Shown here piece after piece: positions 56,342 to 64,000 of a stretch of DNA of 64,000 nt. The notes beneath the pieces are model-generated. The model was given only the letters and a program-made list of their open reading frames with translations. It made no database searches and was not told the DNA's origin. The DNA comes from an uncultured Alphaproteobacteria bacterium. Lineage in GTDB: Bacteria; Pseudomonadota; Alphaproteobacteria; Methylaequorales; Methylaequoraceae. The position numbers were made by a program, and so were the translations under genes. The first letter of the stretch is position 1. Each line of letters starts with the position of its first letter. The stretch covers positions 1 through 64,000 of the forward strand of contig CACCYL010000007.1 in assembly GCA_902550225.1 (NCBI GenBank). The letters run 5' to 3'.

Positions 56342-56365
56342 ACGCAGACACAAACGCAGACACTA
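56342..56365 (+). repeat. Tandem 12-base repeat before copy C1
   Basis: ACGCAGACACAA is followed directly by ACGCAGACACTA. Position and pattern match the pairs at 55557 and 60615. Confidence 0.55.
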
Positions 56366-56412
56366 TTTTCAAAACCCCAAGGAATAAAGAGTTTTAGACC
56401 ATACACCGAGAC

Positions 56413-56465
56413 ACAGAAGTCTCATCGGCAAGGGCGGGCAATTGTTCGCCCTTGTTTGTTTTAGG
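56413..56465 (+). repeat. ssrA 3'-end repeat, copy C1
   Basis: It is identical over 53 bases to the end of ssrA, including the terminator. The flanks CCGAGAC on the left and ACAAAGGGTTTCAGAGG on the right are also shared with other copies. It bounds the first module. Confidence 0.93.
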
Positions 56466-56586
56466 GAGACTTACAAAGGGTTTCAGAGGTTTGACTCAAC
56501 AGAAAACAAAACAAAATAAAACGAGTTAAGTACAATACACTTTTGTTTGTTCTTATTTTCTTAAAGATTTATTTTAATCTTAAAAC

Positions 56587-58484: not shown

Positions 58485-58669
58485 TTTTTAATTTTTTTTC
58501 ACTTTACAAATTTTCTTCACAGATACTGATTTTCTTACTATTTGAAGAAGATTAAAGGTCGTCTAAACTGTTAATAAAAGTTTATACTTCAATTCTATTT
58601 ATTTCAGTATTTTATTTGTATAATTAAGATATTAATTTCATTAATTAAAAAATTTTGCTAATTAATATT

Positions 58670-59494
58670 ATGTTCTACTTGACAGAAAAGAGTATTAAGA
58701 TAGCAAACTCTGAAAATTATCTGGATAGATTATCTGAGATTTATCCAATGATACCTGAAAAAAAAAGAGTTCTAAGTGAGAGCAAGATTAGAGAGATCCA
58801 TAAATATTTTACAGAAAGAAATAATATTGAACTTATTAAATGTTTGCTTGGATTAGACCTATTTCCAATAAAAGATTCTTATGTTGCGTTTTTAAGAACC
58901 TGTAATAAGAATAGATATAGAAAATTTGAAAAAGAAGAAAAAATCGATAATGATGTTTTTCTAAGAAACCCTAATACAGTTGATCGATTAAGTCACAGAC
59001 TTTATGATATGGGTATTGATGAGATTATTAGAAATTCAACTTTACCAAAAGAAACTAATAGACAAATAGGTCCAATGTTTAAAAATTGGATTATCGCTGG
59101 TTCTTTAGGTTATAAAGTTGTTGCAGAAGAAGAATTTTTAAATTGTAATTATGATTGTATTTTGAATACATCAGAAAAAAGAATGATGGAAATAGCAAAA
59201 AACAAATTTAACTATCAAAGAAACAAAGGATTAGATTTCTTTGCAAGAAAAAATAACAAATATATAATTGGTGAAACTAAATTCTTAACTGATTTTGGTG
59301 GTCATCAAAATGCACAATTTGAAGATGCGTCCACTCTTCTGAATGTTGATGCAAGTAATGTAGTTAAAATAAATATACTTGATGGTGTTATTTATTTATA
59401 TTCAGATGGTAAAGCGTATAAAACAATTACAGCAAGCAATAGTTATATTTTTAGCGCTTTATGTTTAAAAGAGTTTTTAGATAAGTTAAATTGA
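58670..59494 (+). CDS. Type II restriction endonuclease (PD-(D/E)xK type)
   Basis: From the ATG at 58670 the protein has 274 aa. The probable active site is GLDFFARKNNKYIIGETKF with Asp189, Glu202 and Lys204, followed by DFGGHQNAQFED. This arrangement is typical of type II restriction enzymes; I cannot name the recognition site. Its TGA overlaps the TTG start of the methyltransferase (TTGA), so a complete R-M pair is present in the second ssrA module. Confidence 0.78.
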   Translation: MFYLTEKSIKIANSENYLDRLSEIYPMIPEKKRVLSESKIREIHKYFTERNNIELIKCLLGLDLFPIKDSYVAFLRTCNKNRYRKFEKEEKIDNDVFLRNPNTVDRLSHRLYDMGIDEIIRNSTLPKETNRQIGPMFKNWIIAGSLGYKVVAEEEFLNCNYDCILNTSEKRMMEIAKNKFNYQRNKGLDFFARKNNKYIIGETKFLTDFGGHQNAQFEDASTLLNVDASNVVKINILDGVIYLYSDGKAYKTITASNSYIFSALCLKEFLDKLN

Positions 59495-60522
59495 AAAAAA
59501 ATTTGTTAATTGAATCAGAATCTATCAAGGGATTAAATTATTTGATAAGAAATTTAAAACTATCAAATAAAATTGACTTAGTATATATAGACCCCCCTTT
59601 TTCTACAAAAAACGACTTTATTATTTCGGATAAAAGAGTTTCAACCATAAGCAGAAAAAAAATTGGAAAAATTGCTTACAGCGATAAATTATCTGGAAAA
59701 AAATACTTAAACTTTATAAAAGAAAACCTAATTCTGATACATAAGTTATTGTCAGAAAGAGGGTCGATTTATTTTCATATTGATTATAAAGTTGGTCATA
59801 AGATAAAAATTATGCTTGATGAAGTATTCAGCGAAAAAAATTTTAGAAATGATATTACAAGAATTAAATGTAACCCAAAAAACTTCAAAAGACTTGGGTA
59901 TAGCAATATTAAAGACTGTATCTTATTTTATTCCAAAACCGATAACCCTATTTGGAATGAACCTAAAAAAAAGCATTCTCCAGAACAAATAAGAAACCTA
60001 TTTAAAAAAATTGATAAGGATGGACGAAGATACACCACAGTTCCCCTTCATGCGCCCGGCGAAAATGCACAACACGAAAACAAAACTTTTCAAGGATTAC
60101 AACCTCCTGAGGGAAGGCATTGGAGAGCAAGTGTAGAGAAAATTGAAGAATGGAACAATGAAGGTTTAATTGAATGGTCGAAAACTGGAAATCCAAGAAA
60201 AAAATTTTATGAGGATGAAAGCGATGGTGTAAGGTACCAAGATATTTGGGAATTTAAGGATCCTCAATATCCAAAATATCCAACTGAAAAAAACAGTTCT
60301 CTTCTCGATTTAATAATAAATACTTCAAGTAATAAAAACAGCATTATTTTAGATTGTTTTTGTGGTTCTGGAACAACTCTTAAATCAGCGCAAATGTTAA
60401 ATAGGTCATGGATTGGAATTGATCAATCAAAAGAAGCAATAAAACAGACAAAATTGAAGATTAACCAAATTGAAAGTGATTTATTTTTAAATGCAGGAAA
60501 TTTTGAATTTATAAATTTATAA
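59491..60522 (+). CDS. DNA adenine/cytosine-N4 methyltransferase (beta class)
   Basis: The 343-aa enzyme has motif IV DPPF at 34-37 near the N-terminus and the SAM motif DCFCGSGTT at 288-296 near the C-terminus, the beta-class order. Between them are TTVPLHAPGEN, EGRHWRASVEKIEEW and DIWEFKDPQYPKYPTEK, as in type III Mod-like and related adenine methylases. The TTG start overlaps the endonuclease stop. It protects host DNA from the partner nuclease. Confidence 0.9.
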   Translation: MKKNLLIESESIKGLNYLIRNLKLSNKIDLVYIDPPFSTKNDFIISDKRVSTISRKKIGKIAYSDKLSGKKYLNFIKENLILIHKLLSERGSIYFHIDYKVGHKIKIMLDEVFSEKNFRNDITRIKCNPKNFKRLGYSNIKDCILFYSKTDNPIWNEPKKKHSPEQIRNLFKKIDKDGRRYTTVPLHAPGENAQHENKTFQGLQPPEGRHWRASVEKIEEWNNEGLIEWSKTGNPRKKFYEDESDGVRYQDIWEFKDPQYPKYPTEKNSSLLDLIINTSSNKNSIILDCFCGSGTTLKSAQMLNRSWIGIDQSKEAIKQTKLKINQIESDLFLNAGNFEFINL

Positions 60523-60614: not shown

Positions 60615-60638
60615 TTTGCATACAATTTTGCATACACT
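60615..60638 (+). repeat. Tandem 12-base repeat before copy C2
   Basis: TTTGCATACAAT is followed directly by TTTGCATACACT. The pattern GCATACA matches the GCGACAC/GCAGACAC pairs near the other ends. The neighbouring CAGAAGTCGTGCA..AAATGAC is shared with the block before copy C3. Confidence 0.55.
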
Positions 60639-60686
60639 TTTTGAGAAACCCAAAGTTACAAAGGGTCTTAGGACTTTAACCGAGAC

Positions 60687-60739
60687 ACAGAAGTCTCATC
60701 GGCAAGGGCGGGGAATTGTTCGCCCTTGTTTGCTTTAGG
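60687..60739 (+). repeat. ssrA 3'-end repeat, copy C2
   Basis: It matches the ssrA end at 51 of 53 positions (changes in GGGCGGGG and TTTGCTTT). Flanks ACCGAGAC and AAAGGGTTTCAGAGG are shared. It bounds the module with the R-M genes. Confidence 0.92.
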
Positions 60740-60950
60740 AACTGTCAAAAAGGGTTTCAGAGGTTTTACTCAACAAAAAATAAAAGAAAACAAAAAAATT
60801 CAATTACCACATAAATACCACAATAAAGTGTTCCCAGATTACTATGATAAAAAGTAGTCCGTGCAGAAGTCGTGCAGAAAATGACATCGATTCACAGACA
60901 CTTTTTAAGGACTCCGCAGAAACAGAGGGTCTTAGACCAAATACCGAGAC
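60740..60950 (+). other. 211-base module between copies C2 and C3, no gene
   Basis: This interval has the left flank (AAGGGTTTCAGAGG...ACTCAAC) and the right element-end block (GTTCCCAGATTACTATG at 60830) with almost nothing between. It looks like an element reduced to its two ends. No open frame of note is present. The bases from 60523 to 60686 before it are likewise only element-end sequence. Confidence 0.6.
60830..60880 (+). repeat. Element-end block preceding copy C3
   Basis: It is near-identical to 56281-56330. The frame FPDYYDKK-stop matches FPDYYGEK-stop there. The part AGTAGTCCGT.CAGAAGT recurs once more at 61346-61364 without a following ssrA copy. Confidence 0.6.
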
Positions 60951-61000
60951 ACAGAAGTCTCATGAGTAAGGGGCGGGCTGTCGCCCTTGTTTGTTTTAGG
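60951..61000 (+). repeat. ssrA 3'-end repeat, copy C3 (diverged)
   Basis: ACAGAAGTCTCAT and CGCCCTTGTTTGTTTTAGG are conserved. The centre is changed (GAGTAAGGGGCGGGCTG), with three bases lost, but the hairpin is kept. It is probably the oldest or most distal site. The right flank GAGACTCACAAAG matches the other copies. Confidence 0.88.
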
Positions 61001-61035
61001 GAGACTCACAAAGAGTTACAGAGTCCATGTTATTT

Positions 61036-61317
61036 TTAAATACCAAACCAAGAAAAAATAAAATTACCAACTACCATTAATGTATAAAAAAATACAATAC
61101 AATAAAGTAGACCGAAGAAAATGATATAAATTCCTCCAAGTAAAACACGGACTAAAGAGGTCAGTGCACTTCCAAGAAATTTAAGTTCTAAACTCATTAG
61201 AAATGAATTGACTTTGGATTTAGTTTTTTTATTCAACCAATAAACTGGATAAGTGCATATCCATAAAATTGGTAAATATAAAAAAATATACAGTGCTGTG
61301 ATTCCTAGTAAATCCAT
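61036..61317 (-). CDS. Hypothetical membrane protein, 93 aa
   Basis: About three hydrophobic segments (LLGITALYIFLYLPILWI, LTSLVRVLLGGIYIIFFG, and LYCIVFFYTLMVVGNFIF) with a basic loop KKTKSK. I do not recognise it. It lies alone between copy C3 and a partial element-end block at 61346, so it is probably accessory. Confidence 0.6.
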   Translation of the reverse strand: MDLLGITALYIFLYLPILWICTYPVYWLNKKTKSKVNSFLMSLELKFLGSALTSLVRVLLGGIYIIFFGLLYCIVFFYTLMVVGNFIFSWFGI

Positions 61318-61364: not shown

Positions 61365-61480
61365 AGTGTTGAAAAAACAATTATTTGTAAAACTAAATTT
61401 ATATTATTATAAAAAATCTATTTTTAATTGATACTTATGAAATTTCTAGTAGACTGAGTTTTAAAAACAAAGGAAATTTC

Positions 61481-61630
61481 TTGACTAATAAGACTAATAC
61501 TGGAAATAGTTGTTGCAAGTACACCTGCTGTGCGGATGGCTGTTGTAGTGAAGGCTGCAAAACAGGAGATTGCAGTTATGGTTGTTGTAAAGACGGTTGC
61601 TGTGTCGATTTAGAAAACTGCTGTTCATAG
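61481..61630 (+). CDS. Cysteine-rich metallothionein-like peptide, 49 aa
   Basis: A TTG start preceded by AAAGGA at good spacing opens a frame with 14 Cys in 49 residues, mostly as CC pairs every five residues: SCCKYTCCADGCC, then SEGCKTGDC, then SYGCCKDGCC and ENCC at the end. There is no signal peptide. The content suggests metal binding (zinc, copper or cadmium). It lies 194 bases upstream of a Zur-like regulator on the same strand. I know no named family with this CC spacing. A modified peptide (RiPP) precursor is an alternative. Confidence 0.7.
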   Translation: MTNKTNTGNSCCKYTCCADGCCSEGCKTGDCSYGCCKDGCCVDLENCCS

Positions 61631-61824: not shown

Positions 61825-62256
61825 ATGAAAAATAAAATCTTACAAAAAGCAATCAAATTCTGTGACGAAAATAACCATCGTTTAACCGAACCAAGAAAAA
61901 GAGTTTTAGAAGTTATATCTTCTAGCAAAAAACCTATAAAAGCTTATGAGATTTTAAAAAAAATTTCAGAAATGTTCGATAACAACCCTAAACCTCCAAC
62001 TATTTACAGAGCAATAGATTTCTGGAATTCACATAATTTTATTCATAGAGTAGAAAGTCAAAACGCTTACTTTTCATGTGTTGAAGATCATTTGCACGAA
62101 GGTTCACAATTTATGATTTGTGACGAATGTGGGAAAGTTATTGAAGCACATCTCTGCGATTTACCAGAAAATATCAAACAAAGTACTAAACAAAAGGCCT
62201 TCATTCCAAAAGCATGGAACTTAGAGATAAAAGGCTTATGTGGAAATTGCTTGTAG
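61825..62256 (+). CDS. zur: Fur-family regulator, Zur-like
   Basis: The 143-aa protein has the winged-helix part (RLTEPRKRVLEVISS, PKPPTIYRAIDFW) and metal sites: HDH-type VEDHLHEGSQF and two Cys pairs (ICDECGK and LCGNC). The pattern and length fit Zur rather than Fur. It represses zinc uptake when zinc is bound. The downstream convergent genes resemble a Zur-regulated zinc operon, and the Cys-rich peptide lies upstream. Confidence 0.85.
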   Translation: MKNKILQKAIKFCDENNHRLTEPRKRVLEVISSSKKPIKAYEILKKISEMFDNNPKPPTIYRAIDFWNSHNFIHRVESQNAYFSCVEDHLHEGSQFMICDECGKVIEAHLCDLPENIKQSTKQKAFIPKAWNLEIKGLCGNCL

Positions 62257-62269
62257 AATTATATAAGGT

Positions 62270-62893
62270 TTAGTTTGCTACCAAATTAGCTTTTTTTAGA
62301 CGAAAAAAAATGTTGTAAAGATCATCTTTTGGAACTAGCTCAAGCGTTCCAGTTATATTAATAGGATCGTATGAATAAACAATCGGATCATCAGCATGTA
62401 CCTCTATAATCAAGTTGGACGATGCATGAGGGTAGTATGGACAATGAACTGGAAATGGTATTAATAAGAAGGTTTTTTGCTTTTCGTTTTGATCTAAAGG
62501 GAACATATAACCTTGAACCAGAATTTTCTTATTTGCTAATTGTTTAATTTCGTCTGTGAACTCTGGTCTCACTCCAGTCCATTCAAACCCTTCGCTATCC
62601 TCAAATGTGTACTCGTCCATTCCTGTGTCTGCGAATACCTTCCAAGGCGTTCCTCCCTCCGGTAAACTTACAAAATCATCTATACTAGAAAACATCTCGT
62701 ACATAAAATTTGGATCCTCTTGGTCTAAATCTTTAGTTGAAAATACCTCTGTAATCGTTTTGTGATTTTCAGATAAGATTTTTGCAAAATGAGCATAACC
62801 GTACACTCTATCAAAATGAATTATGGAAAAAAATAAAGCTAAGACAAATGTAAGATTTTTTAATTCTAAGTTGTTGAATTTTAACTGCTTCAT
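62270..62893 (-). CDS. DUF3299 periplasmic protein
   Basis: The 207-aa protein has a signal peptide (LTFVLALFFSIIHFD) and a C-terminal DUF3299 domain: KKILVQGYMFPLDQ, FLLIPFPVHCPYYPH and IVYSYDPINITGTLEL. DUF3299 genes occur beside MacB/LolC-type ABC transporters in zinc-regulated operons such as Vibrio zrg. It follows the permease gene by six bases. The role in metal uptake is inferred from this context. Confidence 0.8.
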   Translation of the reverse strand: MKQLKFNNLELKNLTFVLALFFSIIHFDRVYGYAHFAKILSENHKTITEVFSTKDLDQEDPNFMYEMFSSIDDFVSLPEGGTPWKVFADTGMDEYTFEDSEGFEWTGVRPEFTDEIKQLANKKILVQGYMFPLDQNEKQKTFLLIPFPVHCPYYPHASSNLIIEVHADDPIVYSYDPINITGTLELVPKDDLYNIFFRLKKANLVAN

Positions 62894-62899
62894 AAGATG

Positions 62900-64000
62900 T
62901 TATATATTTCTTGAAAGTTGATTTGCAACACTAATTTGTGATGCCTTTATCGCAGGAAATAGTGCGGCAGCAATGCCTGTTATAAAAACAATACCTATTA
63001 TAAAAATTAAATCATTTGTTAAATCAAAGCTCTCCTGAATTGTGTTTAAAGGTTTAATAACATTATTAATAATTTCAAATATTGTAATCCCAAACAAAAG
63101 CCCCAAAATCAACCCCAGTATAATTATTGTGATACCTTCAAAGATAATAATCTTAAACACCCTTTTTTTAGTGTATCCAAGTGCCCTCAGAGTAGCCAAG
63201 TCTCCCATTCTATTTTCAAGATTAGCTGCCAAACCAGCAAATATGCTCAAAGCTGCCATAAGAATTAAAATAATTGATAGAGTTGCAAAACTTTTTGAAC
63301 CCATTCCTAACATTGAAGTAAGTCGGGTAATCTCAACTGCTGGATTAGCAGCTTGCAATGAGGTTTCCTTATTTACAAATCTTGGAAGATTAATATTTGC
63401 AATTGGTGATTTTGTAGTTACTAAAAAAGCAGTTATCTCTGGAGAGTTTTTTGTATGTTCATGGGCATGTTCTTCGGCATGCTCACCGTGATCATCATCT
63501 TCTAAATTTACATTATTCTTTTTCTTATCCCCAAAATGATTGTGCTGATTAATTTCTTCAGAATGTTTACTGTGACTTTTACCATTTTGATGATGTTCAT
63601 GATTATCCTTGTTTTTAGGATGTTTGTGATGACTTTTATTATCTTCTTCTCTATCGGATTTTTTGATGGGGTTTAAATGACTGTCATTTTTATTTAAACT
63701 GTCTAATCCATGAATACTTAACACTGAGTCAACCGAAGTAATTACCAGTCTATCTATTACTGATCCAGTTTGTTTGATTTTACCAACAACTTTATATTTT
63801 TTATCTCCATGAAAATCACCACCTTCGAAGAGTCCATGTGCACCTTCGAATTCCTGATTTAAATTGAGATTTACAGATGAGCCCACTACAACTTCAAAAT
63901 CGTTTTTCCAGACGCTACCTTCCTCTAGTTTTGCGTTATAATGTTCAAGATAATTTAAAGAAGTACCAACTATTCTATGACCTTTCCAGTTGTCACCCAA
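62900..64000 (-). CDS. FtsX/MacB-type ABC permease with His-rich insert, 5' end outside window
   Basis: The frame is open to the window edge, so the N-terminus (including the first helix) is missing. Visible are a periplasmic domain (GSVWKNDFEVVVGSSV, VVGKIKQTGSVID), a segment of about 65 residues with 15 His (HHKHPKNKDNHEHHQ, HGEHAEEHAHEH), and three C-terminal helices with the FtsX motif ENRMGDLATLRALGYTKKRVF. The His cluster suggests zinc or another metal. It is upstream of the DUF3299 gene and convergent with zur. Confidence 0.85.
   Translation of the reverse strand: MGDNWKGHRIVGTSLNYLEHYNAKLEEGSVWKNDFEVVVGSSVNLNLNQEFEGAHGLFEGGDFHGDKKYKVVGKIKQTGSVIDRLVITSVDSVLSIHGLDSLNKNDSHLNPIKKSDREEDNKSHHKHPKNKDNHEHHQNGKSHSKHSEEINQHNHFGDKKKNNVNLEDDDHGEHAEEHAHEHTKNSPEITAFLVTTKSPIANINLPRFVNKETSLQAANPAVEITRLTSMLGMGSKSFATLSIILILMAALSIFAGLAANLENRMGDLATLRALGYTKKRVFKIIIFEGITIIILGLILGLLFGITIFEIINNVIKPLNTIQESFDLTNDLIFIIGIVFITGIAAALFPAIKASQISVANQLSRNI

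Follow-up and report, generated by a model that had tools for sequence, protein, structure and literature searches.

A conserved 14-cysteine metallothionein-like peptide, outside the searched protein families, in marine Alphaproteobacteria predicted to be methylotrophs

A short open reading frame in a 64,000-nucleotide stretch of contig CACCYL010000007.1 (the whole stretch is called the window below) is, as judged from sequence comparison, a genuine conserved protein-coding gene (Table 1). We consider it probable, at about 0.78, that its product is a cytosolic metallothionein-like peptide of a family absent from the searched libraries, holding about 4–5 divalent d10 ions. In the reducing cytosol its 14 thiolates would fold around these ions (Zn, possibly Cd), and the resulting metal-thiolate clusters would serve the cell in metal buffering, storage or detoxification. 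The host is a marine alphaproteobacterium of the TMED127/'Methylaequorales' lineage, genus GCA-2691245. The single-cell genome AG-892-F10 belongs to this genus ('Methylaequor') in the alphaproteobacterial order TMED127/Methylaequorales, whose members are marine bacteria with small genomes and, by prediction, obligate methylotrophs (PMC12542740).

Table 1. Features at the peptide locus, in window coordinates
Feature	Position	Strand	Remarks
14-Cys metallothionein-like peptide gene	61481..61630	+	49 aa; TTG start, TAG stop
AGGA ribosome-binding site	61471..61474	+	6 nt 5' of the TTG of the peptide gene; AGGA/GGAG in most genus relatives
Likely sigma-70-type promoter, TTGATA-N16-TAGACT	61428..61455	+	Conserved block and consensus scan
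zur-like Fur-family regulator gene	61825..62256	+	194 bp 3' of the peptide gene, same strand
DUF3299 protein, ZrgE-like	62270..62893	-	Matched to ZrgE by family; context only
FtsX-type ABC permease with His-rich segment, ZrgB-like	62900..64000	-	Context only; extends past the window end
93-aa membrane protein	61036..61317	-	Divergent neighbour; in two genera (g1, g10), adjoins the peptide gene

Rereading of the sequence confirmed the 14-cysteine frame, start codon and ribosome-binding site proposed in a preliminary description of this DNA. No in-frame start other than the TTG is possible, and the GTG or ATG starts of the relatives align with it, most of them preceded by similar purine-rich AGGA/GGAG sites. 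The cysteine fraction of 0.286 is the highest among the 364 window ORFs of at least 30 aa, the runner-up reaching 0.152, and compares with a maximum of at most 0.194 in 30 order-3 Markov simulations of the window; the binomial probability of at least 14 cysteines in 48 residues is 3e-14. Since a cysteine-rich frame by itself proves nothing, it is conservation that was decisive in accepting the ORF as a real gene.

Of the 32 genomes of the order, 17 have a homologue, and of the 13 genomes of the genus 11 have one; a single homologue is a pseudogene. These 32 genomes, often incomplete, form a single family that makes up the whole order in the genome set. One further clear relative came from a class-level sample of 385 genomes; it is carried by G134, a genome of 2.5 Mb from a different order of the Alphaproteobacteria. 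No additional relatives were detected among 398 genomes drawn from the phylum, nor in the rest of the family and order of G134, and weak partial matches in two genomes (G030 and G076) were left out of the homologue set. Whereas the preliminary description had reckoned with a possible lack of homologues retaining the cysteines, homologues are thus many and every cysteine is kept.

Members of the family are 42–52 aa long and contain 12–14 cysteines. The spacing of the window peptide, CC-x3-CC-x3-CC-x3-C-x4-C-x3-CC-x3-CC-x5-CC, is identical in 17/17 intact 14-Cys copies from two orders. All 14 cysteines are invariant, as are K13, G20, T28, G29 and S32, and TGT/TGC exchanges are seen at each of the 14 cysteine codons in these copies. 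Across 38 codons, the variable sites number 15, 11 and 37 at the first, second and third positions, respectively. The median NG86 omega is about 0.15; YN00 gave 0.67, an unstable value obtained from only 8 usable pairs of a very short gene. Cysteine-rich frames are frequent in repetitive DNA, and the window frame might in principle be a chance or antisense ORF. The pattern of change by codon position, the invariant cysteines with their synonymous third positions, and the start and ribosome site kept between species all argue against this, and we regard a chance frame as ruled out by conservation and composition. In a bare scan of viral contigs for the CC pattern, every frame recovered lay in DNA that was repetitive or biased in composition. 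A viral, phage or plasmid origin was rejected, as IMG/VR, phages and plasmids contained no homologue; a plasmid-search match to Nonomuraea (E 0.3, 39% over 30 residues) was set aside.

The TTGATA element of the likely promoter is part of a block, AATTGATACTTA, which in a 10-species alignment is kept genus-wide and partly in other genera; in the sigma-70 consensus scan itself, promoter-type matches were equally frequent in shuffled sequence. A genome-wide search found no second exact copy of the full block, and its sole 1-mismatch copy precedes a gene that looks like recJ. As genome copies are only near chance, the block was rejected as the operator of a regulon.

The peptide can be divided into two six-cysteine modules (CCx3CCx3CC and CCx3CCx5CC) on either side of a two-cysteine hinge, Cx4C. 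Neither CxC nor CxxC occurs in any family member. Histidine is present 0–1 times per member at a position that is not conserved, aromatic residues number one or two at most, and the pI is acidic in nearly all members. Small, cysteine-dense at conserved spacing and poor in aromatic residues, these peptides agree with the broad functional criteria of a metallothionein. The N-terminus is hydrophilic and, judged by sequence, devoid of a signal sequence, which points to a cytosolic location. An AlphaFold2 model (pLDDT 55) was too poor for fold comparison.

By analogy with metallothionein chemistry in a reducing cytosol, the peptide most likely binds metal. Clusters of known bacterial metallothioneins contain about 2.75–3 thiolates per ion (PMC7387436), a ratio at which 14 cysteines would suit 4–5 divalent ions. 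In Tetrahymena, the CC/CCC-rich metallothioneins of subfamily 7a are tentatively Cd/Zn thioneins and the CC-poor ones of subfamily 7b are Cu thioneins (PMC1808422). Because the peptide has CC pairs, as in subfamily 7a, and no CxC, it probably prefers Zn/Cd over Cu(I). The gene is useful yet dispensable, since roughly half of the genomes of the order, often incomplete, yielded no copy and it has become a pseudogene in one species.

Searches of Pfam, NCBIfam, PHROGs and PDB profiles and sequences gave no family match for the peptide; the sole match, to a keratin profile at E 0.065, was judged spurious. In the case of PF02069, the SmtA/BmtA family, none of 17 members matched the profile even with E values of up to 10 allowed, and the family was absent in 32/32 genomes of the order, the same search being positive in Synechococcus elongatus as a control. 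As for similarity to the solved SmtA and PflQ2 metallothionein structures, the profile search of PDB sequences was equally without a match. The early impression that the spacing is unlike that of SmtA/BmtA is supported, and the peptides appear to constitute a family of metallothionein-like sequences that is truly new. As the composition correction of HMMER is harsh on cysteine-rich sequences, a very remote homology may have gone undetected.

The regulator gene lying 3' of the peptide gene encodes a Zur-type Fur protein, as first described. Its product matches Pfam FUR (8.3e-13), the NCBIfam Zur model scores best at 98.9 bits, under its cut-off, and the best PDB matches are 7dh7, a Fur-family regulator, and E. 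coli Zur (4mtd, E 2e-20), with the CxxC pairs aligned. In 9 of the 11 locus-bearing genomes of the genus, the peptide gene is located directly 5' of zur and in the same orientation, with a gap of 104–194 bp at the loci measured, and no terminator-like stem was found between the two genes. The DUF3299 and FtsX permease genes beyond zur have their counterparts, by family, in ZrgE and ZrgB, which are encoded by the zinc uptake operon of Vibrio; Vibrio ZrgE carries the DUF3299 annotation (PMC9817125). In relatives, an ABC ATPase gene follows the FtsX-type permease gene. The promoters of these zrg-like ABC ATPase genes (L058:4290-4440, L059:4510-4660 and L060:11634-11784) share a candidate Zur box like TATAAAGGATAATCATTTATA; the sites have at least 3 mismatches to the cyanobacterial consensus and, as a set, score about 3 sd better than shuffles. 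On the other side of the peptide gene, the 93-aa membrane protein matched no Pfam or NCBIfam family. Adjacency to zur is limited to genus g1: the peptide gene is found near glmS-glmU in genera g2, g3 and g9, and near DoxX and the 93-aa membrane gene in g10. Across the order, zur is present in 13/17 genomes with the peptide gene versus 10/15 without it (Fisher p = 0.70), many of these genomes being incomplete. A Zur-box search of the peptide gene promoters with four consensus forms gave, for each form, a mean best mismatch count within about 2 sd of shuffles, the TMED127 box being possibly of a different form.

A stronger form of our preferred explanation would make the peptide a zinc-storage metallothionein under direct control of the adjacent Zur, like bmtA, which is activated by Zur in marine Synechococcus WH8102 (PMC9337993). 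Besides this precedent, the same-strand position directly 5' of zur, next to a ZrgEB-like zinc-uptake cluster and with no terminator found in between, is what such a reading would predict. It nevertheless seems unlikely to us, given intergenic gaps of this size, an adjacency seen in one genus, the lack of preferential co-occurrence, and peptide gene promoters whose best matches are close to those of shuffles, in contrast to the candidate AATGATNATCATT-like site of the ABC promoter. The zinc/Zur argument, though plausible, is weak for these reasons: Zur control of the peptide gene is not supported, and a 'Zur-linked zinc store' is unproven. The preliminary description, which had read the peptide as a small zinc-binding metallothionein, is accordingly retained in part. 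Metallothionein is the best reading of this conserved cysteine-rich gene, but the step from proximity to zur to zinc is not supported.

The same observations, namely that neither a Zur box nor a zinc operator was found and that the gene is not tied to zur beyond one genus, could be turned in favour of a copper(I) thionein resembling MymT, in which the 14 thiols would hold a polynuclear Cu(I) core for detoxification and zinc would be incidental. Thiol-dense peptides can in general bind Cu(I). However, CxC is absent, whereas the Cu-type metallothioneins of ciliates consist of CKCxxCKC units (PMC1808422), and no copper genes were recognised next to the peptide gene in any genus, which makes this reading quite improbable. 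We give still less credit to a thiol buffer or scavenger, acting in redox or on formaldehyde, in place of a metal store. With 29% cysteine the peptide would be a rich thiol source, and obligate methylotrophy, with methanol oxidised via formaldehyde, is predicted for the order (PMC12542740); the exact cysteine spacing nevertheless suggests a cluster with a defined fold rather than thiols in bulk, and roughly half of the order yielded no copy of the gene, though all its members are thought to be methylotrophs. Least probable of these is a cysteine-responsive leader peptide (attenuator) for zur, where translation of the cysteine codons would sense cysteine supply and set downstream expression. 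Polycysteine attenuator short ORFs are known from mycobacteria, and in one genus the peptide gene is indeed a cysteine-rich short ORF just 5' of a regulator gene. Relocation of the gene between genera largely refutes this idea, since wholly different genes lie downstream in the other genera and in the distant relative G134; moreover, non-cysteine residues and the exact cysteine spacing are kept end to end, and the terminator-like stem expected 3' of the peptide gene was not found. The metallothionein reading, with divalent metal, is the one that we prefer.

The gene shows several signs of movement and decay. In G134 it adjoins a tyrosine integrase gene (L049:877-2651), and this neighbour, together with the lack of a relative elsewhere in that order, suggests that it reached G134 by horizontal transfer. 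In G003, a deletion between two GGAGATT direct repeats has removed the front half of the copy at the usual locus (L062:5531-5610), which has also acquired a stop; a second copy, truncated, is present just 3' of a DoxX gene (L062:7215-7290). Another genome, G027, carries two peptide genes 1.3 kb apart (L050:7386-8989): the 14-Cys copy is located 102 bp 3' of a DoxX gene, and the other is a shortened 12-Cys paralogue. A DoxX-like gene is reported to rank among the most transcribed TMED127 genes (PMC12542740), although it may differ from the neighbour of the peptide gene. In three genera (L052-L055), the peptide gene adjoins glmS or is a few genes off. The 3' end of glmS is a known integration site of Tn7-like elements.

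In the window, three more copies of the 3' end of the tmRNA gene (55153-55452/55493), together with the flank downstream of it, lie beyond that gene at about 56356-56533, 60630-60807 and 60895-61023. These copies resemble the attachment-site scars of islands that insert themselves at tmRNA. Genes for a Tsp45I-like restriction enzyme and a DNA methylase (58655-60522) are found between them, and the peptide gene lies just past the last copy. A bolder view would be that of a mobile new metallothionein family, consisting almost entirely of cysteine pairs and free of histidine, which would be the chief buffer for divalent metal in some of the abundant methylotrophs of the open ocean and would spread between alphaproteobacterial orders in linkage with integrases. 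We put this forward tentatively, our confidence falling somewhat short of even.

Before a 2020 study of Pseudomonas, only two bacterial metallothioneins, SmtA and MymT, had a studied biological function by the count of that paper (PMC7387436). The present case, a tiny peptide with almost one-third cysteine from abundant open-ocean methanol-using bacteria that fits none of the searched families, suggests that metallothionein surveys based on known profiles miss families. At 49 aa it would also be an easily expressed test object for the relation between CC spacing and metal preference.

Three known systems can be compared with the peptide. SmtA/BmtA (PF02069), from cyanobacteria and Pseudomonas, are likewise of about 50 aa, cysteine-rich and presumed cytosolic, but they have 9 coordinating cysteines plus histidine, whereas the peptide has 14 cysteines in six CC pairs and two singles; with no conserved histidine and no CxxC, it should lack a zinc-finger lobe of the SmtA kind. 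MymT, the mycobacterial copper metallothionein, is also a short cysteine-rich bacterial peptide. Its cysteines are separated and CxC motifs are present, in contrast to the peptide, from which it is here set apart by description rather than alignment. The role of MymT is in copper (PMC7387436). The third system comprises the Cd/Zn metallothioneins of Tetrahymena subfamily 7a, which have cysteines mostly in CC clusters, regular spacing and modules (PMC1808422). Compared by description, these eukaryotic proteins differ in being far longer and in their CCC runs, C2X6 spacing and CxCCK module ends, and the resemblance is presumably convergent.
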